A stretch of 64,000 nt of DNA from Vitis vinifera (lineage: Eukaryota > Streptophyta > Magnoliopsida > Vitales > Vitaceae), in NCBI RefSeq assembly GCF_030704535.1, contig NC_081823.1:22503001-22567000 (forward strand). Reading direction: 5' to 3'. Under the pieces are notes generated by a model that saw only the letters and a list, made by a program, of their open reading frames with translations, did no database searches and was not told where the DNA came from. Shown here in pieces: positions 6,346 to 64,000 of this stretch; the stretch's first letter is position 1, and the number at the start of each line of letters is the position of its first letter. The position numbers were made by a program, and so were the translations under genes.

Positions 6346-7070
6346 CAATTGATTATGTAAATGCGAGATATAATATTTTATATTTTTCATTTTCTAAAAG
6401 GATATATAAATTTATTTATACTTTTTGTTGCTATTTTGAAATTTTGTCTTATTTACTCTTTAAATTTTGATCTAAATCTATACAATTTTTTTAAAAAGAG
6501 TATTATAGATGGATTTTAGATTATGTAACCTGACCAACCGAAGTGTAACAAGATCAATCCAAATTCAATTGAAGTTCAGAAAAATTAGGTTAACTTGAAC
6601 TTAGTACCTCAAATTTGAGGTGGGATTAGGTTGAACTAAAATTGAATGTTTCTTAATATGGGTTTGGGTTCCATGAATTGCAACCTTAGACCAGATAGGA
6701 TTCGGCAGTGGGTGACCATCACCATTACATAGAGGGATGTACACGCGCCTCAGCAGCGAGTGATATGATACAATCCTCAAACACTTGGATAACAAAGGGA
6801 GGGAGTGCTCCAGACGGGATTGGTGGTGAGGAGCCACAATAACTTCCCTGCCAACCAAACACTCCACCACTGCTTGCAGGATGTGGGAAATTCAGCACCA
6901 ACTCCAACCCCTCTTCTTCACAACAATTTATTTTCACAAGTAACAACTCAAGCCTTCTTGGTGTTCTTCATTTATTTGTTTTTCCTTCATTCGATTTGAT
7001 TTTAAAGGGAAAAAAAGTAGAACCGTTTGTATAGTTCGTGGCTTCAATAACTGTACAGTTGTCTCCAGCC
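6346..7070 (+). other. 5' flank of the PPR gene
   Basis: No ORF with family resemblance. The GC content rises after about 6650, as expected for the upstream region and leader of the PPR gene. I could not single out a convincing TATA box. The short overlapping ORFs here are chance frames. Confidence 0.4.
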
Positions 7071-8774
7071 ATGGCAATCCTGGTGAATGCAATGTCTCCA
7101 ATTACAAGCCCATCTCCAGAAAATGCGAGAAAGGTTTGTGGATTCTTTTCCCAGGTTCCTAATCTCCATACCCTTTCACTGAACAAGGGTTTTTCTAGGG
7201 TTTTGGCATCTACCCAGATCACCATTTCTCCTAAGGACAATGTTTTCACACTCCCCAATTGGAGGTCTGGAAAGAACGACCCAAGAACTAGAGACCTCAG
7301 GCTCAATGATGCTTTTTTGTATTTGGAGTATATGATAGGGAAGGGACACAAGCCCGATGGAGGACAAGCTACTCAGCTCATGTATGAGCTCTGCAAATCA
7401 AATAAGATGAGGAAAGCAACTAAGGTGATGGAGTTGATGATCGGTTCAGGTACCACTCCAGATCCTGCTTCTTGTACCTTCTTGGTGAATAATCTGTGTA
7501 AAAGAGGGAATGTTGGGTATGCAATGCAATTAGTTGAAAAAATGGAGGAATATGGATATCCAACCAATACTGTTACCTATAATTCTCTTGTTAGGGGGCT
7601 TTGTATGCATGGAAACTTGAGTCAGAGCTTGCAAATTTTGGATAAATTTATGAAGAAGGGGTTGGTTCCAAACGTGTTCACATACTCATTCTTGCTTGAA
7701 GCTGCGTATAAGGAGAGAGGGGCTGATGAAGCCATAAGGCTCTTGGATGAGATAGTTGCTAAGGGTGGGAAGCCTAATCTGGTTAGCTACAATGTTTTGT
7801 TAACTGGATTGTGCAAGGAAGGCAGAACAGAAGAGGCAATGCAGTTCTTTAGGGATTTGCCATCTAAGGGGTTCAGTCCGAATGTTGTGAGCTATAATAT
7901 TTTGTTAAGGAGTTTGTGCTACGAGGGGCGATGGGAAAAGGCAAAGGAGCTTCTGGCTGAGATGGATGGCGGGGAACGTTCCCCATCCATAGTTACATTC
8001 AACATATTGATTGGTTCGCTTGCCCTTCATGGACAAACTGATCAGGCTCTTGAGGTTTTAGATGATATGTCGAGGGCACGGTTCAAGGCCACTGCTGCAA
8101 GCTACAACCCAATAATTGCTCGTCTTTGCAAAGAGGGGAAGGTGGATCTTGTGGTTAAGTGTCTTGACCAAATGATGTATCGACGCTGTAATCCTAATGA
8201 GGGTACATACAATGCAATTGCTGTGCTTTGTGAGGAGGGAAAGGTGCAAGAGGCATTTTCTATAATTCAGAGCTTAGGTAATAAACAAAATTCCTCCACG
8301 CACGACTTCTACAAAGGTGTTATCTCAAGCTTGTGTCGCAAAGGGAACACATACCCAGCATTTCAGCTTTTGTATGAAATGACAAAGTATGGATTTGTTC
8401 CAGACTCCTACACTTATTCATCTCTGATCAGAGGTTTGTGTTCAGAAGGAATGCTGGATGAAGCCATGGAGATATTCAGTATAATGGAAGAAAATTACTG
8501 CAGGCCTGATGTTGACAATTTTAATGCGCTAATACTTGGGTTATGCAAATGTCGAAAAACAGATTTGTCATTGATGGTTTTTGAGATGATGGTCAAGAAG
8601 GGCTATATGCCTAATGAAACAACTTATACCATCATCGTGGAAGGGATTGCCCACCAAGAAGAAATGGAGCTGGCAGCAGCTGTTCTAAAAGAGTTGTATC
8701 TAAGACAAGCTGTGGGCAGAAGTACCTTAGAAAGGCTTGTTATGCAATATGACCTTGAGGGATTACCAATTTAA
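7071..8774 (+). CDS. P-class pentatricopeptide repeat protein, probably plastid-targeted (At1g79080-like)
   Basis: Intronless 567-codon gene from the ATG at 7071 to the TAA at 8772-8774. The open frame extends 11 codons upstream but only through a GTG, so 7071 is the first ATG. After an N-terminal stretch rich in Ser, Thr and Lys/Arg and poor in acidic residues (about residues 1-75, transit-peptide-like), the protein is built of roughly thirteen 35-residue P-type PPR motifs. These carry the usual signatures, such as NTVTYNSLVRGLC, NVVSYNILLRSLC, PDSYTYSSLIRGLC and PNETTYTIIVEGIA. P-class PPR proteins bind organellar RNA through residues 5 and 35 of each motif and act in stabilisation, splicing or translation. 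There is no E or DYW extension, so no editing domain. The whole sequence resembles Arabidopsis At1g79080 as I remember it; the RNA target is unknown. Confidence 0.93.
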   Translation: MAILVNAMSPITSPSPENARKVCGFFSQVPNLHTLSLNKGFSRVLASTQITISPKDNVFTLPNWRSGKNDPRTRDLRLNDAFLYLEYMIGKGHKPDGGQATQLMYELCKSNKMRKATKVMELMIGSGTTPDPASCTFLVNNLCKRGNVGYAMQLVEKMEEYGYPTNTVTYNSLVRGLCMHGNLSQSLQILDKFMKKGLVPNVFTYSFLLEAAYKERGADEAIRLLDEIVAKGGKPNLVSYNVLLTGLCKEGRTEEAMQFFRDLPSKGFSPNVVSYNILLRSLCYEGRWEKAKELLAEMDGGERSPSIVTFNILIGSLALHGQTDQALEVLDDMSRARFKATAASYNPIIARLCKEGKVDLVVKCLDQMMYRRCNPNEGTYNAIAVLCEEGKVQEAFSIIQSLGNKQNSSTHDFYKGVISSLCRKGNTYPAFQLLYEMTKYGFVPDSYTYSSLIRGLCSEGMLDEAMEIFSIMEENYCRPDVDNFNALILGLCKCRKTDLSLMVFEMMVKKGYMPNETTYTIIVEGIAHQEEMELAAAVLKELYLRQAVGRSTLERLVMQYDLEGLPI

Positions 8775-36389: not shown

Positions 36390-39300
36390 CAAAGCATGCC
36401 ACCCTTTTTAATCTCACTGGCATATAATGGGGCAACTTATCACGAAAAAACTTAATAATCTCATTGGCATTTGCATTACACCCTTCCTTCGACTTCACAA
36501 ATGCACATGGTGTCTCTACTCAGTAGTCATCAGGCTTTCCTACCACAACTGCCTCAAAGATTGTTGGGTGACTAAAAAACAAAGCGTCTACCTTAATTGT
36601 GCTTATATTCTCTCCCCTAGAAATGATGATATCCTTTGAATGATCCTTTAACTCTATGTAGCCATCATGATGTTTCACTCCCAAGTCCTTGCTACGAAAC
36701 CACCCGTTTTCTAAGGCTTCCTATGTTGCTTTAATATTTATTATTCCTATTTTGTGGTTTTTTTTTTTTTTTTTTTTTTGTCATATGAGTGTATGGAAAC
36801 ACATTTTTTTAAGTATCCATTCATCACAGTGTTGTCTCTGAACATAACCTCACCTACGGCTTTGGCGTCAGGTGGTACGCTCTTCATAGTAATAAGGTCT
36901 TTTATGTCAATCTCCTCCATGCCAAGATGATGCAACCCTTGCCAGGCTTTGATCTTTGCTTGCTTCTTAGGAGGCAAAAGATCCTACTCAGGTTTCCAAG
37001 TGCAAACGCTTCCAGGACCATAGGTTACTATCAAGCCATATGAGTGACTTATCCCAAATCCTAGTTCTTTCATTTTGAAAAGTACTCATGGAAGTGGAGG
37101 GGTGAAGGGGCACGACTTGTCATTGCAGCCACCTTGATTGGAACTAGCCTTTGACCACTGACTGGAGTGTTAATGATCATGTTTAAAATAGTGGGTGTAG
37201 CACCCATATGGGTGGCCTTGTGTTGAGCAATACTTTCAAATATTCCCTTTACTGTCACATTTCTTAAGAAGACATTGATGCACCCTAGGCTGCCACACCC
37301 CAAGTGAGGCGCCACCCATTGCAGTGAAACATGGAAGCAGCCCACAAATTAACAGACATTGGGCCCATTTCATTAAGGAGAATAACTGCTAGGGAATTGA
37401 GGTAGGCACCTCTATGGCTATAAATAAACACCTGTTGGACTAGATGTTTTTAAGCTTAAAGATGTAATTAGTTAGGATATTATTTTATTTCTAGTCTTTT
37501 AGCTCCATAGTTAGGCACCTCTATAGTTGGTTAGGATGTGTATCTTTTACTTGTATATAATGTTTGCTCTGTTATTGTAGAAGACCACTAAGATAAATAA
37601 TATCAACATCTTTTCCTCTCATCTCTTTCTATTTCCCTCTGTTTCATCACTTCTTTCATCTTAGTATCAGAGCCTCCATGGCTTCTTTCAATAAGACCTC
37701 CGAATCACCTTCTGCTAGCACTGTGAATGTACAAAACCCATTATCTCAGTCAAACAACCTTCATCCACCAGTAAACACACCCTCTTTTTCTTTCCCGTCT
37801 ATGAATCAACCTCTCATAGTAAAGTTGGATAATAGGAACTACCTCATCTGGAATAATCAGCTTCTGAATGTCATCATCACTAACGAACTCGATGATTTCA
37901 TTGACGGATCTCGACATTGCCCTCCTCGATTCCTCAATCTGCAACAACAAATCATCAATCCAGAGTACTCGGTCTGGCAAAGATACAATCGACTTTTGAT
38001 GAGTTGGGCTATATGCATCCTTGTCCAAAGATATAATGGCTCAGATTGTTGTGTATTCAACAGTAGTGGAGATTTGGAACACCCTTAATCAGATTTACTT
38101 TACCTTTTCTATGGCACTAGTTACCGAGCTTCACACCAAACTTCAAACGCTTAGGAAAGATGAACTCTCAACTAGTGAATATATTCAAAAGCTCAAATCC
38201 ATTTGCAATAGTCTTGCAGCAATAGGAAAACCAGTTTATGAGAAAGAGCATCTCATCTATTTGTTCAATGGATTAGAACGTGAGTATAATCCTTTTGTTA
38301 CATCCATTCAAAATCGATCTGACCAACCAACTCTTGAGCAAATCCATAGCCTATTGCTTAGCTATTACTTTCGTCTTGAACAACAAAACTCTATTTCTCT
38401 CAATTCTGCCCAAGTCCATATGGCTCATCTAAACAAGAAACCTTATAAATCAACTCCTCAACTTACATTCAATCACATTCACATTCAACCTAGATACTCT
38501 CCTCCAACTTTTAAGCCAACCACTAGTCAATATCAACCCAACATTTTGGGCAAACCACAACCACGACAACCTCAATCTCAATGGAAACCACATTTTTCAA
38601 TCCAGAATCAAAAGTCTCAGTGCCAAATTTGTGGTAACTTTGGACACGCTACTCTTATTTGCTTCCATCACACAAATTTGAACTATCCATCCCAACTTTC
38701 TCCTAAATCTTTCAATGTTGTTCTCACCATAAATTCCCAACTCTCTAATCCTCTAGAATTTTCTTTCTCTACAATGGCTCATTCTTCTGTTACGCATAAG
38801 ACTGTTCCCGATACAAATTGGTACATGGACTCAGGTGCTACACATTAATTTACTCCGGAAATCAACATGCTTGACACTGTGACACCATTTAGTGTTTCAG
38901 ATCAGGTGACAATTGGGAACGGTAAGTAACTCTGTATCTCACATCTTGGTACTTCAAAAATACCATCCTCGTACTTCAAAAATACCATCCTCGTATTCTC
39001 CTCTTGTTCTACATCAAGTCTATCACACTCTAAAAATTTCAAATAATCTTATTAGTGTTACAAAATTGTGTTATGATAATAAAGTTTTTATTGAATTTTA
39101 TGCCACTCATTTTCTTGTCAAGGATCAGGTTCGAAGAGGGTTCTCCTTCAGGGTCAGCTTGATAATGCCTTATACAAAGTTCAATCCTCATTCTTTCCTT
39201 CTAGTGTTTCATTTTCTCCTCGAGTTTTCATAGCCAACATCAAGGATCCAAATCTATGGCACTAGAGACTAGGCTACCCAGCTTTATATGTTGTTAATCA

Positions 39301-49068: not shown

Positions 49069-49351
49069 TAAAAGAAAAGTAGAAATATAAACATGAAATG
49101 AACAATTTTTTTTATACAATGAATTAAATTTGATTGATATTTTAGTCCATTGACACATAGGAGAGAAAAAAAATCCCATGTACTAAAATGTTGTCTTAAT
49201 TAAGTATTAATATATCCCAATTTATAACATACTGGTAAGTTCTAATTATGTTAAATTACTCTTATCTATCTATTTTTTATTGATTTAATTGTTTTTATTA
49301 TCACTTTAACAAAGTACGACAATATCCTTCATTTTTCGTCAATTAAAACTA

Positions 49352-49462
49352 GGGAAAGCTGATCAGAAGGGACAAAAATCCCTCAATATTGTAAAACTAA
49401 CCCTCCACTTTTAATAGCCTCTAAAATGGTCCGATCTGGACAAAAATACCCCTCAGCTACAT
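49352..49462 (+). repeat. Left terminal inverted repeat of the MULE
   Basis: About 110 bp, matching the right end in reverse. The motif ggacaaaaat(c/a)ccc occurs twice, at about 49369-49382 and 49438-49451, and the right TIR has the same pair at the same spacing. Paired motifs inside TIRs are candidate transposase-binding sites. Confidence 0.9.
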
Positions 49463-49622
49463 CAACTCCTTTTTCCCTCCCATTCTAATTTTATTTCCCT
49501 CCATTCACCTCCTTTTTATTATTTCTTCCACTTTCTCATTTTTTTCATTTTCTCCTGTTATTCCGTTTCTCTCTTTTCAGTGCATTTCTTCAAGTCTCAC
49601 ACAGTTTCTCTTCAGATTTCTT

Positions 49623-49644
49623 CAACTTAAAGCGCTTTAAGTTG
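49623..49644. promoter_or_regulatory. Perfect 22-bp palindrome in the transposase leader
   Basis: A 22-bp perfect palindrome centred on AGCGCT lies about 270 bp from the left end and 220 bp before the transposase start codon. Its arms end in the cttaa/ttaag wording that also marks the internal repeats of this element. It could be a binding site for a dimeric protein or an RNA hairpin in the leader; nothing in the sequence decides. Confidence 0.6.
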
Positions 49645-49864
49645 TGGTTGGATAAACAGTGTACGTTTATTTTTATTTTTCCATATTTTTTTCTTTCATG
49701 TTTTATTTATTGAATATTTTCAAACATTTAATGAGATGTAGTAAATATTTAAATAAGTTTGAAATTGTTATAATTTTTTTAATATCATTTACAACCATGA
49801 AAAAAGGGATTAAAAGAAGGAAACAATCAGCTTAAAAAGTGTAGCGTGGAGAAACATTGTCTAT

Positions 49865-52800
49865 ATGGAAAAATCAAATGATGGTAAGTAATAAAACTTA
49901 TGGAATTTTATGATGGTTTTGGTATTGTTTGCACATTTGTGCTTTATATAGATGTAAATATATGTGTTAATAGGGTTTTGACATAATATATAAAGTTATC
50001 TTTTTTAGTTATATATCAAAACCTTACGGATATTAAGTTGAACTTGACGTGTGTTAAGTTGAACTTGAAGTAAGTTAAGATTGTATATAGTTATTTTATA
50101 GTAACATTATATTTTTGTTATTGTATTTAATTATACTCAATTTGAGTTGAATCATTTGCAAATTAGCCTTGACATTAAATAAATTACAACATAACCAATC
50201 TTTTAGTAAACAAATATATTTTTATTGTTTAAAATAGTTTAGAGTTACAATGTCTGAATTTATTTAATAACTATATACATTGTATTTCTATATCATTATT
50301 GGTATTATTTGAGGTAGTAAAGATGATTAATAATGTTATTTATTTGTTGTTTATTAAAAAAATAAATATGTGTAATGAAATAATATGTATTTAATAATGA
50401 ATGAGTTTTTTAAAATTAATACCTACTTATTGGTGCTAATGCTATGATGTAACTAAAAAATATTCTAATATTGTTTGTTGATGCCACTAATTGAATTATT
50501 CTGTTATTTCAGTGGTTGATGAAGTAGGAATAATGCTTTTATATGAAGGAGAATGGGTACGAGATGGAAATGTTTTCTATTTCGAAGGAAGTAAAGGTAA
50601 AGGCATTGAGATCCCGAAAACTATATCATATAAAGAGTTATTAGGGGTTGTCCATCATATTTTGAAGCTAGATCCAACAAATTGTTTTCTTTCAATGAAG
50701 TATGTATTCAATGCCAACATACCCACAAGTCCTATACAACTAACTGATGATGGGGATGTGAAATTCTTTATTGGTTTAAATTGTACAAATGGTAAGCTGC
50801 CTGTTCCATTATGCATCACAGTTGAAAAGAGAATTGATAATCACAATCAGAAATCAATTTGCAATTCTTATTTCGAATGTCATATGTCTTCTGAGATTGA
50901 TAAAGAATTGAATGAGGACTCAATGTTGATGCATAAAAGTAGACACATTCATTGTGATTCAGTTGAAACTCTTACTGTTGATGGTGAAAATGGACCAAGA
51001 TTTCAAAATGAGTCACATGAAGAGTATAAAGTTCATGATTGGAACATGAATGAGACTGCAATTAATGAGGAGGATTATAGAATGAATACTAACCCTACTA
51101 GTGATAAGCAAGTGACCCAAATTGGCTCATTCAGAACTGGTTCAGCTCAGAGTGCAGAAATCTTGACCATGATTGATACAAGTGATGGGTTCATACATGA
51201 CAATCCCACTATAATCGAAGATGTAGCAAATGAAAGACAAAACATGATGCAACAACCTATAGTTAGTGGAATTAGTGATGACCATCTAGAAGAACACCAA
51301 ATTTACTCAAGTAAGAAAGAATTACAAAGGAAGTTGTATATGATGGCTCTGAAAAGGAAGTTTGAGTTCAAAACAACTAAATCCACTACTAAGTTATTGC
51401 TTGTTGAATGTTTTGATAAAGAATGCAAGTGGCGAGTTCGTGCTACCAAGTTGGGGATTTCCAATATGTTTCAAATAATGAAATTCTATTCAACACACAC
51501 TTGTCGGTTAGATATGATGTCTCGTGACAATCGACATGCAAGTAGTTGGTTGATTGGTGAGAGTATAAGAGAAACATATCAAGGGATTGGTTGTGAATTT
51601 CGACCAAAAGACATTGTAGCAGACATTCGAAAGCAGTATGGCATTCAAATCAGTTATGATAAGGCGTGGAGAGCCAAAGAACTTGCTCTAGGTTCTATTA
51701 GGGGATCACCTGAGGAGTCTTATAACACTTTACCATCCTATTGCTATGTTTTAGAGCAAAAAAATCCTGGTACCATTACTGATATAGTTACTGATTGTGA
51801 TAATCAATTCAAATACTTTTTTATGTCGATTAGTGCATCTCTTGCTGGGTTTCACACATCAATAAGGCTTGTGGTTGCAGTTGATGGGACATTTTTGAAA
51901 GCAAAGTACTTAGGGACTTTATTTATTGCAGCGTGTAAAGATGGCAACAATCAGATATACCCTTTAGCCTTTGGGATTGGTGATTCAAAAAATGATGCCT
52001 CATGGGAGTGGTTTTTACAAAAACTACATGATGCACTTGGACACATTGATGATTTGTTTGTGATATCAGATCGACATGGTAGCATTGAGAAAGCAGTACA
52101 TAAAGTATTTCCCCATGCGAGGCATGGTGTCTGCACTTATCACGTTGGACAAAATTTGAAGACAAAGTTCAAGAATCCTGCAATTCATAAGTTGTTCCAT
52201 GATGCTGCCCATGCTTATCGTGTTTCAGAGTTTAATTTTATATTTGGGCAACTAGAGATGATTGACCCAAGAGCAGCAAGATATTTGATGGATATAGGTG
52301 TTGATCGATGGGCACGTTCATATTCTACCGAAAAAAGATATAATATCATGACGACAGGGATCGTTGAAAGCCTTAATGCTGTGTTGAAAAATGCTAGAGA
52401 TCTTCCGGTTTTGCAATTGGTTGAAGAATTGAGAAACTTACTTCAAAAATGGTTTGTGACTCATCAACAACAAGCAATGTCAATGTCAACTGAACTTACC
52501 ATGTGGGCTGATGGAGAACTTCGTTCTAGGTATAATATGTCAGCAACATATCTAGTGGAACCTATCAACTCCAAGGAGTGTAATGTTAACTATGCTGGCA
52601 TTAGTGCTCAAGTGAATTTAGACACTCGTTCATGCACATGTCGACAATTTGATCTTGATCATATTCCATGTGCACATGTTATTGCTGCTTGTAGATTTTA
52701 CAACATTTCATGTTACACTTTGTGCTCCAAGTATTTTACTACTAAAGCATTGTTATCTTCATATTCAGAGTGTATTTATCCAACTGGAAATGAAATAGAT

Positions 52801-52980
52801 TGGGTAGTACCTAATCATATTCGTGATAAAGTTGTGTTACCACCTAAAACAAGACGCCCAACAGGAAGACCAAGGAAAGTAAGAATTCCTTCTGGTGGAG
52901 AGGGCAAGCGCACATCTCGTTGTAGTCGATGTGGTCAATATGGGCATAATCGGAAAACATGCAAACGACCAATCCCTTGA
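49865..52980 (+). CDS. MuDR-type MULE transposase, two coding exons
   Basis: Exon 1 (49865-49883) encodes MEKSND plus one base and ends at G|GTAAGT. Exon 2 (50513-52980) starts after TTATTTCAG and restores the frame, giving 828 codons with no stop. The domains in order are: a PB1-like N-terminal region typical of plant MuDR proteins (about 1-110), an acidic linker, a MuDR-type zinc-binding DNA-binding region (about 265-335, with VECFDKECKWRVRA and a downstream C/H pair), and the MULE DDE core. Core catalytic candidates are Asp464 (VVAVDGTFLK), Asp526 (FVISDRHGS) and Glu625 (GIVESLNAVL). A SWIM zinc finger, CTCRQFDLDHIPCAHVIAAC, lies at about 714-733, and a CCHC knuckle, CSRCGQYGHNRKTC, near the C-terminus. 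The continuous ORF from 50491 begins inside the intron and lacks a reason to be the start. It should cut and rejoin at the TIRs in the nucleus. Confidence 0.93.
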
Positions 52981-53282
52981 TATCATGATAGCTTTGGCAC
53001 TCTATGAACTTACATGGAATGAAAATTGTAATAGTGAGCTTTTTTGTTTTTTTGGTACCCATGTGAACAGAAATGTAAGTTACTTTTTTGTATAAGGTGA
53101 TAGGATAAGCACATAGATGAATATTGTAATAATGATCCCCTTTTTTTGCATAACCATAGAAATGGAGATATTTGTTACTTTTGTACATATATGTTATGAT
53201 GAGTTATGTATAAAGTATAAATGAAAATTACATGTTTATTCTCAAACTATGGACTCAACTGTTCTCACGTTTATTGATAAGG

Positions 53283-53974
53283 AACTTGACAATAGTTAAG
53301 TTCAAGTTTTGTCTGAAGACTGTGGACTTAACTACCTTCAAGTTTGTACATAAAACAACTTGACAATAGTTAAGTTCAGGTTTTGTCTGAAGACTGTGAA
53401 CTTAACTACCTTCAAGTTTGTTCATAAAACAACTTGACAATAGTTAAGTTCAGGTTTTGTCTGAAGACTGTGGACTTAACTACCTTCAAGTTTGTACATA
53501 AAACAACTTGACAATAGTTAAGTTCAGGTTTTGTCTGAAGACTGTGAACTTAACTACCTTCAAGTTTGTTCATAAAACAACTTGACAATAGTTAAGTTCA
53601 GGTTTTGTCTGAAGACTGTGGACTTAACTACCTTCAAGTTTGTACATAAAACAACTTGACAATAGTTAAGTTCAGGTTTTGTCTGAAGACTGTGAACTTA
53701 ACTACCTTCAAGTTTGTTCATAAAACAACTTGACAATAGTTAAGTTCAGGTTTTGTCTGAAGACTGTGGACTTAACTACCTTCAAGTTTGTTCATAAAAT
53801 AACTTGACAATAGTTAAGTTCAGTTTTTGTCTGAAGACTGTGAACTTAACTACCTTCAAGTTTGTTCATAAAATAACTTGACAATAGTTAAGTTCAGTTT
53901 TTGTCTGAAGACTGTGAACTTAACTACCTTCAAGTTTGTTCATAAAATAACTTAACAATAGTTAAGTTCAGGTA
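53283..53974. repeat. Tandem array of 74-bp units, nine full copies plus a partial
   Basis: Units start at 53283, 53357, 53431, 53505, 53579, 53653, 53727, 53801 and 53875, with a partial copy at 53949. The period is exactly 74 bp with few substitutions. The first six units alternate between two variants (tgtggactt with tgtacat, and tgtgaactt with tgttcat), so the array grew largely as 148-bp dimers. Each unit holds an imperfect inverted repeat: acttgacaatagttaagttc, a spacer of about 20 bp, then gaacttaactaccttcaagt. The array lies between the convergent 3' ends of the transposase and ULP genes. Single diverged units follow to about 54210. Confidence 0.97.
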
Positions 53975-54380
53975 AAAATGACAATTGTAGACACAACTTC
54001 TTATGAGTCTATAGAAGATCAACTTGATACCTGTTAAGTCCAGATTAAATATGTTATTCTGGAATAGATTTCGACTTAATATCTGTCAAGTTTGTTCACA
54101 GTTAACTTGATAGTAGTTAAGTTCATGTGTTCTATTAAGACTGTGGACTTAATTACCTTCAAGTTTGTACCCATAACAACTTGACAACATTGAAGTTTAG
54201 TTTAAAATGTCAATTGTATGCATAACTATCGAACAACATTCATCAAAATATCCAAGTAGATATATCAACCTGTCCAACTACATTTATCAAAATGCCTAAC
54301 TACATATATGAAGCTATCCAATTACATATAACAAACCATCCAACTACATTATCAAAATGTGAAATATCAACATGAATTCA

Positions 54381-57300
54381 TTACATAGGCAAGTATTTCA
54401 TATAAAATAACTCTGCTACCATCTTTTCCCGAAACCAGTCCATTCGTGCACTTGTTAATGACTTCAATGGATGGTTGTGCATTAAGTATTCAGCATATTT
54501 GATAACAAACATGCCACAATCACCACTGCATGGTACACAAATAATCAATGTTAGGGCTATTATTAAAGATTAAGTGTATAAGTTATGAAAGTAAATTTAA
54601 GATCACTTACTCATTTTCCTGTTGAGGAATATCTTGCAGCCATTCAATTTCCCATTCTTGGTAGTTAACTTTTGTGTCACCATGAAAACCATAATATGCT
54701 ATTGCATTCAATATATGCGGCAACAATTTGGCTAATGGTTTAATGGCAACTTGCAATCTTGCATTATTATTGATGCCCATCAATGAGTCATATACGTATA
54801 TAATCCTTCGATGAAGGTGGACAACTCCTAATACCCAGTGACTAGCCCGAACATTGATAGGGACATACACAATGTCAACATCAGGCCATTTGACAGAATA
54901 AAGAGGCTGCAAACCATTGGCATAATCAATAAGGATGTCATTCTCTAGTAATTTGAATTGGTTCCACTTCTTGCCATGCTTAATCCATCTTGCTTGAGCA
55001 TTTTGCTACATAGAATAAAGTTAATATACATAAATAAATAACCAAGATCATAAGATTCATTATTACAAAAAAATTAAAAATGTTAACTAAAATTCAAACT
55101 ACACATACCCAAAACATAGTATCCACTGTGGTAAACTTTTGGGAAAAAAGATGAGGATTTTCTATTCGCCGCTTCCGGAAAAAGAAGAAGGCAACATCAA
55201 TGTGCTAACAATTACAATAAAGTAAATTAGTTATATTATTTGGTTGTAAGCTGAACATAATAATAAATAAAAACAAAAACAAAATGCATCATTTACAAAC
55301 CGTGTCAGCAAGCCATGAACCATGATTAGACAGTGATTGAAACCATTTTTTATCTATATGCATGTAGTCAATGTCAATTGTGGACCTTTGACATAAAAAA
55401 TAAAAATAAAAACATTAGTAATTTTATAACTTGTGAAGAACACAAATTTACAAGTATGGATGTATACAACTTACCCTTGGTCATCACTCATCCACTTTTG
55501 AAAGGACTCTAATGCTTCTTCAGAGATTGGATGCAAAGGATCAAATGAAGTTAATGGTTTCTCAATCTCTTTTCTTAGTTTCTTTCTCTTGGTGGGATCT
55601 GTAAAAGGGTGCTGTAAGATATGAGACTTTTTAATCTCACGCCTTCGCTTAAAAATGGCAGGAGATAGATGGTGAGGTATGACATATACTGAAAACTCGC
55701 CCGACATAGTTGGGGTACCAAACAACTTGGCAATATCAATAACTGGATCATCAATAGAGTAGTCATCTTTCAACTCTTTAGTCATGTGTTTTTCTGCAAG
55801 CTGAAGGTTTCTAGAAGCTTCCATATCAATGTTCACATCCATGGGAATGTCATTTCTCTCCACTTCATCATCTGTAACATCCTAAAAAATTCCAGTCTGG
55901 AAATCAAAGCCCATATTGTTATCATTTTCTTTTGTACTAGATTTTCTGAATCTAGTGTCATGCATACCGTGTTCCTCATTCGAACTCTTAACCTAAAATT
56001 GCATACACCACCCAATAATAATAAATATGAGAAAACACAAATGTCAAAACATTGAAGTATTAGAAAATTTAAACAAGTAAACATGTCACTAACTTCTAAT
56101 AAAAGTTGTTTCAATTCATCCATCTTCAAGTTGAGTCCTTCAATTTCTTTCTTTAGATGATTGAAATTTAACTCTGAGCTTTGTCTGAATTTCACAAACT
56201 CCATCCATAATTTCTGCACATATTGCACATAAATGAAATAAAAATTTAACACTTACAATATTTATATATATATTATGACAAGTTTGTTCACTTTGTGATT
56301 ACTACCAAAAAGTGCTATTTTGTAGACCTAATTATAATGGTTTTAAGCACCTTTGAGTAGTAATCATATTCATTTAACCCAATTAATTCATTAAGGTCCT
56401 TAGTAATTGGTTTTAACCATTTTGTGGCAAGTTTACATGTTTTTATCAGTTTATGAACCAATTCAAGCATGCCAATTGTTGGAGGAGCTACTTGGGCGAG
56501 TTAAGCAAGGATTTTGTACGTTTATAGGCTTGAATTTCAAGTGGAAACACGAGCACAAGCAATGGAGAAGAGGAAAACAGAGTGAAGAAAACAGCTGCAG
56601 TCTTCTTTCGAACTTTTGAGGCACTTCCCAAAGTCCAATTTTTGCATGTTATATACCATTTGAAAGCTTAGGAAGTCAAGAATCCAACGCTTCAAACTGT
56701 GTATGATTTGGAGCTGAAATGAGGAAGATATGGCCTTCGGAAGACAACTGCATCATGTCAAATGGCCAATTTCGCAAGGTGAATTTCACATTGCGAAAAT
56801 TTCGCAATGGGATTTTCTTCATGGTGCGAAATTTTGCCATTTCGCACCATGAAGAGCCACATTGCGAAAATTTCGCAAGGGGATTTTCTTCATGGTGCGA
56901 AATTTTGCCATTTCGCACCATGAAGAAACACATTGCGAAAATTTCGCAAGGAGGATTAGGCACATTGCGAAATTCCTTTGAATCCCCTGTTTTGAGACAT
57001 TGTTGATGTTATTCCACTACCGGTTCTCCAAGATATTTTGCTTGATTTTTAGCTTTGTAAATACCTATTTTACCCTTGTAATCAACCAATGAATAGGTTG
57101 CTTTTGTAATAGCTCTTGTTTATTTATAGTTAAGGTCAGGTTCCACATGTTAATTATGGAATGAACATCTTATATTAAATAAAGTACCGAAAAAAAAAAA
57201 CATGCATGCATTATTTATGATGGCTAAGTTTAGTTTAAGTTACCTCTATTGATGGGGTGATTGCATCATTTGTTGTTTCTTCTGCCATTGCAGCAGTAGC

Positions 57301-59286
57301 AGCAGCAACATATGCAGCAGTGTCAGATGAGCTTTTTTCATGCCTTAAGTCATCATTCTTGGCATCTTGTGAGGCATTTGATTGGTGCAACATTTCTGCT
57401 GAAGCTCCTTGTTTATCTACATGCTTGTAATAGTCTTGTTGTTGCTCCTCTAAAGTGGGTGTTAGAAGCGAATGAAAAGTTAACTACAAAGTCCAAATCA
57501 AATATAATTATTAATAAACAACAATACAATAATATTTATAATTGCATTCTTAAAATGTAAAGGTAAAGAATTACTTACATGAGGCTCTAGAAATACATTT
57601 TCAACCTCAGTAGACCTTGGAGCACTTGTTGCACTCCAATTTAATATTCGAGGATACCTCTCAGATACACGAGTGGCATATTTCAATCCAATAAGTGGAA
57701 TAGCCTCGTATGCCCAAACCTGGAATGCATATGGAAATCCAACAAGACTATATGCTTCAACTGCAGCTTCTCCCTTTGTTTTCTTTTTATCTTGGTATTT
57801 GGATATCCGGTTCTCCAAAGCTCTTTGCAAACCAAATAGTGTCCTCTCATAACAAATCCCCCCCATGGATACTTGTTAAAAGCCTCCAAATTATCAACCA
57901 AAGCAACCCATTCCATATCTATCAAATTTTTTCCTTCTTTCCCAAATAAAACATGCTCTAAAAAATACAAAAGTGCCAACTTTATCACCTCTTCATCTTC
58001 AAATCCTTTTTTTTTATTTTTCTTATTCTTTTTCTTTTTCTTTTCCTCTCCTAAAGAAAGAAAAACTTTCTCCAACTCATCATTACGCACCTTGTTTTCT
58101 CCTTTAAAGTATGTGTCCCTTATTCGTAATGATTTTTTATCACATTTTGTAATAGGACCAAAACTCAAGCCCGTAATCAATGCAAACTCTTCTTTACTAA
58201 ATCTTAAGCCCTTTGACTTTAATAAAATCCATATTTCATTGTCTTTTTTGGTTTCACATTGACGTAACAACAATTGATGAACAATTTGGGCTGAAAATCT
58301 AAGTTCGGGAAGGAGTAAAAAATGACCAAAACATGATTTTCTAAACATCTCCAATTGTGGTTCAGTCAATTTCTTCTTAATATTTTCAATGGCTACCAAG
58401 TGAGACAAACATGCAATTTTTCCAGGAAAGTACTCCTCTTTAGATATTTTAGATATAAAAGATAGGAGAGGAGGAGGAATGTCAATCTGCAAAATAATAA
58501 CAAATTGTAAAAATATCAATATAAATTGAGCAAAATTATATTACCAAACTTATCCAACTATGTTAAATCCATCATTTTGTATTACTTCTTAACATAGACT
58601 TTATTTTCCTATTATTTAAGGATGTCGTGTCAAATGCTAATATTCTAAAGATATTATTTTACTAATGCAATTGAAGCTATTATATTTTAGTAAGTTGCAG
58701 CTACAAAAAATTGGAGACATTATTCTAGTGTTTATTGAAATTTGAAACAAAACAAAACCATTTTGAAATTGCAACCTGACAATGAACTTGATAGCAGTTA
58801 AGTTCAGTTTCTTCTTAACATATATATTTAAATCAAAATTCTAAATATTTGGATAAAATAATTTCACAAAAATTATATTCAAATACGTTATAAATTCATA
58901 ACAAATAACTTCATTACACAAAATTTCAAAACCTTTTGATGGTAAACTTGATAGTAGTTAAGTTTAGTTTTTTCTAATAATTCAAATATTGCTTTAAACC
59001 TTGGACTATAACCTCACTGAGAAAATTTCCAACAATTAGATTATCAATTCATGAAAAATAAATTCACAAAAAAAAATCTATTAAAAATGATAAAATTAAA
59101 AAAAAAATTAAAAATCAAAATTTCAAGTAGACAATTAATGCTTACTGAATCAGTTGATTTCTTCTCATTTTCTGATGACGATGAAGAGGTTTCAAAACCT
59201 GGCTTTCTTTCACTTCTCTTTTTTCCCAAAATTTTATACCTCTTCTGTTTCGTATTTTTCATCACAGAATTTTTTTCTTCCTCCAT
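54381..59286 (-). CDS. Ulp1-type (C48) cysteine protease gene of the MULE, nine exons, one frameshift
   Basis: Exons in transcription order: 59286-59146, 58486-57579, 57483-57244, 56213-56094, 55881-55475, 55385-55301, 55204-55109, 55005-54611, 54525-54381. All introns are GT-AG and phases agree. About 845 codons result, except that exon 2 lacks one base in a G run (57858-57864). Exon 2 holds a DUF1985-like region (ALITGLSFGP, LLYFLEHVLFG) and a Lys/Asn-rich nuclear-localisation-like run. The C-terminal protease domain (exons 6-9) shows IDIDYMHIDKKWFQS, the catalytic His in RASHWVLGVV, Asp in VYDSL and Cys in GDCGMFVIKYAEYL. Ulp1 proteins remove SUMO or related modifiers in the nucleus; whether TE versions do so is unknown. 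An alternative exon-5 acceptor near 55992 would include an in-frame TAG at 55882-55884, so 55881 is preferred. Confidence 0.88.
56290..57195 (+). repeat. LTR-type repeat inserted in ULP intron 3
   Basis: Fills most of the 1,030-bp intron 57243-56214. It includes 'gaagtcaagaatccaacg' and 'gctgaaatgaggaag' phrases shared with 32230-32370. It also contains two copies, 71 bp apart, of a hairpin with arms cttcatggtgcgaaa and tttcgcaccatgaag around an 8-base loop. A shorter foldback, gattactacc..agtgct against agcacctttgagtagtaatc, stands at its left edge (about 56297-56373). No protein domain was seen. Insertion within an intron leaves the splice sites in place. Confidence 0.6.
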
Positions 59287-59570
59287 TTTCATGAACTGAA
59301 TCAACACACAATATCAGAAAGATGAAAAATCGGGTTTGATTAAAAGAAAAAAATAAGAACCAAAATAAGACACTTAGGGTTTCTTCTCATTTCATGGATG
59401 AAGATTCATATATACAGTTCAAAAAACCAAAATCAAAGAATGAAACAGTGAAACTTACTTTCTGTTTTTTCTTTGTATTGTGTTGCCTTTTTGTTCTCTT
59501 GCAATAAACGGAAAAATCCTTCGTGATTTCTTTCTCGCAGGTTAACAGATGGAACAAATGGGTTTGCAGG

Positions 59571-59670
59571 GTAACGAAGAGACACAATACAAGAGAAAAT
59601 TGGAGTTGAAGGGAAAAAGGGTAACGAAGAGACACAATACAAGAGAAAATTGGAGTTGGAGGGAAAAAGG
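59571..59670. repeat. 50-bp tandem duplication upstream of the ULP start
   Basis: Two nearly identical 50-bp units begin with gtaacgaagagacacaatac at 59571 and 59621. They lie between the ULP start codon and the right TIR, in the probable leader or promoter of the ULP gene. Confidence 0.9.
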
Positions 59671-59687
59671 GCTGAAAAAGATAACTG

Positions 59688-59798
59688 AGGGGGTGAGGGG
59701 GTATTTTTGTCCGAATTGGGTCATTTTTGAGACCTAAATAAGTAAAGGGTTAGTTTTGCAATATTGAGGGATTTTTGTCCCTTTTAATCGGTTATCCC
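59688..59798 (-). repeat. Right terminal inverted repeat of the MULE
   Basis: Reverse counterpart of the left TIR. The paired motif reads as gtatttttgtcc at about 59700-59711 and gggatttttgtccc at 59768-59781 on the plus strand. The element ends at 59798, directly before the second copy of ttaaaacta. Confidence 0.9.
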
Positions 59799-59901
59799 TT
59801 AAAACTAAGGTAGTTGGAATGTTAAAAAGTCATTAAAATGAAAATGAAAATGAAAATAGGTCATACATGATTCTGTATCTATTCTGTAATGAAAATAGGT
59901 C

Positions 59902-60691: not shown

Positions 60692-60956
60692 ATGTCCGAG
60701 GAAGACATACCTTGTAAATCTCCGTATGAACCTCGACCAAACCCTATCCCTAACCCTAACCCTAACCCTAGCCCTAACCCCAACCCTGACATTTCCAACG
60801 ACGATGAGAACAACAATAGCATCAACACTTGCGAGTCCTTGGGCACAGCAATATCCTCCATGCTGGGCTCTGTAATTAGGGACTTCGATTCCAGAGCTGA
60901 CGCCGTTATTCGAAGCCAGGATCACCTCTCTCTCGTCATTGATCGTCTCACCGGAG
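60692..60956 (+). CDS. First exon of a probable SNAPIN-like BLOC-1/BORC subunit (partial)
   Basis: ATG at 60692; 88 codons plus one base to an AG|GTCC donor (phase 1). After a low-complexity Pro-Asn segment (about residues 15-33) the protein reads SLGTAISSMLGSVIRDFDSR then AVIRSQDHLSLVIDRLTG. This heptad-type helix resembles the first helix of SNAPIN (pattern D..S....AV..SQ..L...ID.L). SNAPIN is a small coiled-coil subunit of BLOC-1 and BORC, which act in endosome and lysosome trafficking. The next exon should start with AG and encode a continuing coiled coil; I do not find it before the window ends, and the intron holds a LINE. Reading through the donor gives an unrelated tail, so the exon should end here. 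Confidence 0.6.
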
Positions 60957-62611: not shown

Positions 62612-64000
62612 ATTAGAAGCAGAGAATCTTGAGATTCCATTCTCTGAAAATGAGATTCATTCAGCTTTAATGGAGATGAGTGGGGATAAAGCCCCTGGGC
62701 CGGATGGCTTTACTATGGCGTTTTGGCAAAGTTGTTGGGATTTTGTGAAAGGGGAGATCTTGGAGATGTTTAAGGAGTTTTATGAGCAAAGCTCCTTTCT
62801 CAAAAGTCTCAATAACACTTTTCTGGTTCTGATTCCTAAGAAAGGGGGAGCGGCTGATTTGGGAGATTTTAGACCCATTAGTCTCTTGGGGGGGGGGGGG
62901 GGGGGGGGGGGGCGCGCTATACAAATTGATGGCTAAAGTGTTAGCTAATAGACTCATGAGAGTGTTAAACAAAGTGGTAGCCCCAACTCAGAATGCATTT
63001 GTGATGGGAAGACAAATCCTTGATGCTTCTTTAATTGCGAATGAGGTGATAGACTCGTGGCAGAAAAGAAAAGAGAAAGGGCTCATTTGTAAGTTGGATA
63101 TTGAGAAAGCGTATGATAGCATCAACTAGTAGTTCTTGTTGAAGACACTACACAAAATGGGATTTGGCTCAAAGTGGTTGGGGTGGATGTGGAGTTGTAT
63201 ATCTTCAGCCAAGTTTTCAGTTCTAGTTAATGGGGTTCCAGCCGGATTCTTCCCGAGTTCTAAAGGGCTTCGTCAAGGGGATCCATTATCTCCTTACCTC
63301 TTCGTCTTGGGAATGGAAGTTCTAGATGCCCTAATTAGGAGGGCGGTTGCGGGGGGCTACCTCTCAGGTTGCAGTATTCAGGGTGATAGGAGACACAATC
63401 TAAAAATCTCCCATCTCTTCTTTGTTGATGATACAATCGTGTTCTGTGAGGCTAACAAAGAGCACCTAACACATTTGAGCTGGATTCTTTTGTGGTTTGA
63501 AGTAGCTTCAGGCCTAAGGATTAACTTGGACAAAAGTGAAATTATCCCAGTTGGTGTGGTGGAGGAGATTGAGGAGATGGTAGTGGAGTTAGGATGTAGG
63601 GTGGGCTCACTGCCTTCTCAATACTTGGGCTTGCCATTAGGGGCTCCTAACAAAGCCCCTTCAGTTTGGGATGGGGTGGAAGAGAAAGTGAGGAGGAGAC
63701 TAGCGCATTGGAAACGACAATATATCTCAAAAGGGGGGAGAATCACTCTCATAAGAAGCACTTTGGCTAGCATGCCAATCTATCACATGTCTTTGTTCCG
63801 GATGCCTAAGTCAGTGGCTAGGAGATTAGATAAAGTTCAAAGAGATTTCCTTTGGGGAGGGGGAAGTGTGGAAAGGAAAGCTCATCTAATCAAATGGGAG
63901 GCGATTTGTGAGGATAAGAGCAAGGGAGGACTAGGCTTAAGGAAGCTAGTGCTCTTGAACAAAGCTTTGCTTGGTAAATGGATCTGGAGATTTGCTTATG
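62612..64000 (+). mobile_element. L1-type LINE, reverse transcriptase part, 5'-truncated and running off the window
   Basis: Begins about EAENLEIPFSENEIHSAL, continues with [34 protein letters not shown], and after a 25-base G tract (62888-62912) that shifts the frame, [32 protein letters not shown] and [12 protein letters not shown]. Two consecutive TAG codons follow (63127-63132), the first or second in place of the conserved Trp. The frame then stays open to the window end with GLRQGDPLSPYLFVL, the catalytic FVDDTIVF (normally FADD), GLPLGA and the LWGGG block. The endonuclease domain is absent. It lies in the sense orientation within the presumed intron of the SNAPIN-like gene. Confidence 0.93.

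Follow-up and report, generated by a model that had tools for sequence, protein, structure and literature searches.

In Arabidopsis, the transposon anti-silencing protein VANC21 binds a short motif in noncoding tandem repeats of its own elements and causes them to lose DNA methylation (as set out in parts of Hosaka 2017, PMC5735166, and of Sasaki 2023, PMC10398659). Sections of a 2026 review (PMC13317346) report that Ulp1-bearing VANC genes (KIU) act likewise with motifs of their own, and describe the role of Ulp1 there as unknown. VANDALs are called TIR-less or short-TIR in PMC6446971, yet the table there gives 46–174 bp for VANDAL-group members. Grapevine MULEs with a ULP gene (Mutavine) were surveyed in Benjak 2008 (PMC2528002); the main text of that survey uses none of the terms ‘tandem’, ‘DUF1985’ and ‘anti-silencing’. 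In what follows we describe a grapevine MULE that probably belongs to an autonomous family with an anti-silencing system of its own, its ULP gene being the putative VANC-type anti-silencing factor. We favour this reading because the DUF1985 half of the ULP protein is homologous to VANC21 and because candidate target dyads are placed where such a system would have them.

The window (the whole 64,000-nucleotide stretch analysed; contig C19, 22503001–22567000) contains a MULE of 10,447 bp at 49352–59798, lying between exact 9-bp target-site duplications (TSDs) TTAAAACTA at 49343–49351 and 59799–59807. An earlier note on this DNA had claimed a complete MULE with an exact 9-bp duplication, and we agree on both points, as the ends, TSDs, transposase and ULP gene were all found there. 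A paralogous site on contig C9 reads straight across this junction and lacks the element (alignment with 161 identities, 29 mismatches and 10 gap positions), which supports the TSD assignment. The terminal inverted repeats, at 49352–49475 (plus strand, beginning GGG) and 59674–59798 (minus strand), occur at other genome copies; they measure about 124 bp instead of the 110 bp or so previously given, and are identical at 97 of 123 aligned positions (79% identity, 21% mismatch). Because each end is 98–100% conserved among the young copies of the family, despite the difference between left and right, the asymmetry is a family trait common to the siblings, and not decay. Elsewhere the window holds a PPR protein gene at 7035–8774 (a 579-codon open frame; PF13041, 4e-102), a Copia-type gag at 38003–38848 (PF14223, 1.8e-17), a reverse transcriptase frame at 63133–63999 that runs past the window end (PF00078, 5.6e-19), and eight imperfect copies of the telomere-like 6-bp repeat AACCCT at 60740–60787, 0.9 kb to the right of the element.

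The transposase is an 828 aa open frame predicted to have two exons on the plus strand, exon 1 at 49865–49883 (ATG and GT donor) and exon 2 at 50513–52980. Exon 2 encodes DBD_Tnp_Mut (3.1e-9), the MULE DDE domain (PF10551, 3.6e-20), SWIM (1.6e-8) and a CCHC knuckle, and the protein carries VDGTF at 463, SDRH at 525, CTYH at 547, GIVESL at 622 and CX2CX4HX4C at 810, so that the full frame with DDE, SWIM and CCHC motifs noticed earlier is borne out. A search of a viral contigs collection with the transposase gave no relative, and the single PDB match, at E=0.73, was not taken as real. In sibling copy C6b (L021, L022) the sole premature transposase stop falls at codon 625, the presumed catalytic Glu of GIVESL.

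The ULP gene lies on the minus strand, convergent with the transposase gene, and is predicted to have nine exons with GT–AG borders, all within the element: exons 1 (59146–59292), 2 (57579–58486), 3 (57244–57483), 4 (56094–56213), 5 (55475–55881), 6 (55301–55385), 7 (55109–55204), 8 (54611–55005) and 9 (54381–54525). Exon 2 carries DUF1985 (2.4e-22), exon 8 the Ulp1 catalytic domain with its His, Asp and Gln, and exon 9 the catalytic Cys in GDCGMF; Peptidase_C48 matches at 1.8e-17 and 1.7e-7, and SENP1 aligns, with E=1.6e-4, across both His and Asp. We also considered one more exon between exons 4 and 5 and rejected it, as it hits a stop or breaks the frame. The His, Asp and Cys are present in all 14 long copies of the family. 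The exons and catalytic residues of the earlier description stand, but the reading frame is not whole: the window copy is out of frame in exon 2 at a run of seven C (57858–57864), and its frame stops after 316 codons, ahead of the protease half. This copy, called ‘nearly intact’ earlier, is therefore not intact.

Three of the 14 long copies (C14a, C6b and C7c) have a ULP frame of 847–849 codons with no stop. We take the other exon-2 frame to be the right one because these siblings are free of stops and because L049, a divergent relative, and the VANC21 alignment that crosses the 7-C run agree with it. The run is eight long in eight of the 13 other long copies, and in the remaining five it is longer or was missed by the search pattern; an assembly error in this homopolymer may be the source of the window frameshift. 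Of the other nine young copies, six have likewise lost the ULP frame, each with an exon-2 length that differs from the 909 of C14a. Altogether, the ULP frame is uninterrupted in three long copies, the transposase frame in nine, and both in two.

The DUF1985 exon of C14a matches VANC21 (PDB 9lnj/9lnk) with E=3.3e-4, and that of L049 with E=9.9e-5. A five-row DUF1985 profile reached 5.4e-7 (best domain 4.9e-6), and VANC21 was its only match in the PDB up to E=1; the part of the window copy that precedes its frameshift reached E=0.056. We conclude from these alignments that the DUF1985 half of the ULP protein is homologous to VANC21. Acylphosphatase matches (E 0.058) to the latter half of exon 2 were taken as chance, and a single-sequence AlphaFold model of DUF1985, with a mean pLDDT of 36.5, was too low in confidence for fold comparison.

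The noncoding DNA of the element contains 27 copies of an inverted dyad, ACTTRA-N6-TYAAGT. Nineteen are exact dyads in a tandem array at 53283–53973 (period 74 bp, 9.3 units), each unit holding two dyads with 42/32-bp spacing; we regard this array as a candidate target of the DUF1985 protein. The other eight are upstream of the transposase ATG (49625–49642), in the transposase intron (50042, exact, with a one-mismatch dyad 21 bp away at 50063; 50042–50080), between the convergent genes outside the array (54022, 54074, 54105 and 54147, exact, with a one-mismatch dyad at 54179; 54022–54196) and in ULP intron 1 (58786 and 58946; 58786–58963). The dyad is absent, even with one mismatch allowed, from the 5,030 coding bases of the element and from the 53,553 window bases outside it, and the element ends have none. 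Shuffling gave a mean of 0.005 dyads outside the array and a maximum of one in 2000 shuffles, against the eight observed. Among spacers of 2–15 tried outside the array only N6 occurs, and an unguided scan for gapped pairs of 6-mers, with the array removed, ranked the same dyad first.

The association extends to the genome (495.6-Mb assembly, 21 contigs). The 20-mer AACTTGAYARTAGTTAAGTT, with at most one mismatch, was found at 573 places, compared with two for the reversed control; 89 of the first 100 places listed are no more than 6 kb from an element end or DUF1985 match that was itself listed, where the random-place baseline is about 0.6% at 10 kb. ACTTGA-N6-TTAAGT occurs 1325 times, against 158 in the control. 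A literature search, with Sasaki 2022 EMBO J outside it, found no earlier description of the dyad in grapevine. Between copies, the dyad cores vary at 4 of 90 sites and other noncoding DNA at 442 of 3358, a difference with p=0.010 (P=0.015 by template permutation). The dyads compared had been selected for matching in the window copy, and significance is lost within A/T sites (2/72 versus 187/2520, p=0.17) or within non-CpG G/C sites (2/18 versus 234/804, p=0.12).

Short spacings between dyads are mostly near multiples of 10.5 bp (21, 31, 32, 41, 42, 52 and 72–74), many of them not independent; two others, 160 and 67 bp, are not whole numbers of helical turns. In a scan of periods 10.5 bp did not stand out (for six spacings, R was 0.89 at 9.75–10.0, 0.76 at 10.5 and 0.87 at 10.75), and we treat helical phasing of the dyads as suggestive only.

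The position of the array between two convergent 3′ ends could also mean that its palindromic repeats form RNA hairpins or a terminator, feeding or blocking small RNAs. We find this most improbable, since dyads also occur in introns, at distances of 3.2 and 4.6 kb, and since the two dyads of a unit are oppositely oriented, so that on either RNA strand one dyad per unit would have an A–C mismatch in its stem.

Searches of the genome with the left and the right end gave at least 42 matches each, the best 40 of 122 and of 142 candidate places being scored. The earlier proposal to look for copies with both ends thus yielded siblings, and 25 of them were compared with the window copy. At the coordinates used, exact 9-bp TSDs were present in 24 of these 26 copies, no two of them alike, with 94% A+T. 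The two misses are explained by placement: the left end of C14b was set one base off, and the left limit of C19c was mis-set, the window's first base aligning at position 135 of C19c. Ten long copies, the window copy included, form one clade (98/95) in the tree built on the transposase exon; their tips are short and their pairwise identities are 99.4–99.6%, from which we infer a recent burst. The suspicion of recent activity is confirmed at the level of the family, and vegetative propagation means that new insertions can be kept in grapevine. The expectation that most copies are decayed holds for the ULP frame, broken in 11 of the 14 long copies, and fails for the transposase, open in nine of the ten youngest.

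Eight copies of about 6.2 kb form a separate, older clade (100/100) from which most of the ULP gene (54837–58758) has been deleted. They share transposase stops at codons 278 and 370, the former also present in the long copy C13b, and each keeps 17–21 dyads; most likely they moved in trans. Array repeat number varies between near-identical copies. A mini-copy of 358 bp (L015, C7:27401898–27402255) joins roughly 166 bp from the start of the element to 192 bp from its end, contains no dyad, and sits 8 bp from a full copy (C7:27402264–27412597), the two together being flanked by an outer 9-bp duplication, TAAATTTTT.

The ten young copies carry in ULP intron 3 a piece of about 820 bp (56297–57117, plus strand) from the LTR of a high-copy LTR retrotransposon, for which a first look over the genome gave 4057 candidates. 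It took the place of about 60 bp of older intron in the ancestor of these copies, a stretch that four older long copies keep. A search for a TSD around the piece turned up no convincing one; a clean insertion was rejected, as copies without the piece show replacement instead.

Within the family, dN/dS was 1.41 for the transposase and 0.80 for the ULP gene in young pairs, and 0.74 and 0.50 in young–older pairs. Fixed differences between young and older copies are few (five synonymous and nine not in the ULP gene; three and four in the transposase), and any selection these sequences suggest among copies of the window family alone is weak.

The genome contains at least 151 DUF1985-matching stretches, of which three divergent loci were read (L049, L050 and L051). 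L050 represents a second family, with tblastn identities to the window family of 65% over 172 aa for the transposase, 65–69% for DUF1985 and 58% for Ulp1. It has the same convergent two-gene layout, with a 73-bp array between the transposase and ULP genes in which dyads are 41 and 32 bp apart and one arm is changed (ACTCAA-N6-TTAAGT). Dyads with at most one mismatch number 17, where 0.33 are expected. Aligned to each other, the array units of the two families score 77 against a maximum of 44 in 60 shuffles, the match being in opposite orientation with respect to the genes. L050 is decayed, with two stops in the Ulp1 stretch, and keeps the catalytic residues. Between families, dN/dS was 0.14–0.19 for DUF1985, 0.21 for Ulp1 and 0.26 for the transposase, at dS of 0.9–1.8, near saturation, a distance at which the array can still be aligned. 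Ratios so low for both halves of the ULP gene (0.14–0.21), despite near-saturated dS, indicate that both were kept by purifying selection.

These comparisons bear on whether the ULP gene is a host gene fragment that was captured passively and has no role, and the array an ordinary unstable tandem repeat. Gene capture is frequent in MULEs, sections of the 2008 survey took the ULP regions of grapevine elements as transduplications (PMC2528002), and the frame is broken in most long copies of the window family. We nevertheless judge passive capture very unlikely, given the constraint over dS above 1, the retained catalytic residues of L050, the collinear layout and dyad array that the second family shares, and the dyads that lie outside the array.

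L049 and L051 have one dyad pair each, 32 bp apart. No transposase or Ulp1 match was found in the 8.9 kb read at L049, and no transposase match in the 8.0 kb read at L051. L049 (C11:9476500–9485400) has a DUF1985 gene with a 342-codon open frame beside its dyad pair, and is possibly a freed or domesticated relative.

Other DNA transposons have internal or subterminal transposase binding sites. The dyads could be such sites, the ULP gene then acting on another target, such as the transposase itself or repair proteins of the host; the array does adjoin the transposase gene and is retained in non-autonomous copies. This we think unlikely: the dyads are internal, in introns and between gene 3′ ends, and not subterminal, with none in either end; the 358-bp mini-copy has none (though it possibly never moved alone); and dyads stand beside DUF1985 genes that lack a transposase match, at L049 and L051.

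We therefore return to the VANC-type reading. The DUF1985 half would bind the dyads in the introns and intergenic DNA of the element, perhaps as dimers arranged along the same face of the helix, and the Ulp1 half, judged by its protein family, would remove SUMO from silencing proteins there. The element would then lose DNA methylation and could be expressed and mobilized, and the ULP-less 6-kb copies, with their dyads, would probably be served in trans. A sharper version makes the DUF1985–Ulp1 protein a sequence-addressed deSUMOylase, with DUF1985 seated on dyads at whole-helical-turn spacing (32 and 42 bp; 73/74-bp units), the fused protease stripping SUMO from the silencing machinery, and ULP-less copies exploiting it in trans. 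We offer this version tentatively, as possible but on balance doubtful; if true, local deSUMOylation would be how this VANC branch erases DNA methylation. The earlier note had left unresolved why a transposon keeps a SUMO-protease-like gene. The homology to VANC21, together with the dyad array, neither of which that note mentions, suggests a likely answer, and the question becomes testable with a named protein and a named DNA motif, for which uninterrupted copies, gene-less copies and the second family, whose motif has diverged, are natural controls.

The comparison with described elements points to a VANC-type system in a grapevine element. As in VANDAL/VANC of Arabidopsis, we find a MULE with a DUF1985 protein homologous to VANC21, a short motif that is placed in introns and intergenic DNA and forms tandem repeats (compare parts of PMC5735166), here presumably bound by that protein, and repeat numbers that differ between near-identical copies. 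The window element differs from VANDAL/VANC in having an Ulp1 domain in the same gene and in its motif, a dyad of inverted arms set 6 bp apart where theirs is YAGTATTAY or AGTTGTMC, as given in sections of PMC5735166; its inverted ends of about 124 bp may be a further difference. SWIM and CCHC, which the window element has together with ends of about 124 bp at 79% identity, also occur in VANDAL-group members (within PMC6446971). As in the KI-MULE/KIU (Kaonashi) group, the Ulp1 gene is reverse to the transposase (passages of PMC2528002) and Ulp1 lies within a VANC-type gene (KIU; sections of PMC13317346), although the same passages of PMC2528002 describe KI-MULEs as non-TIR, unlike the element with its ends of about 124 bp. 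Grapevine Mutavine MULEs with ULP resemble it in their 9-bp TSDs, where found, and in a ULP gene that follows the transposase, although there it can point either way (parts of Benjak 2008, Table 4 included, PMC2528002). On the best reading of these sequences, the element would be of a known kind, a VANC-type anti-silencing MULE, to which the dyad adds a candidate target motif.
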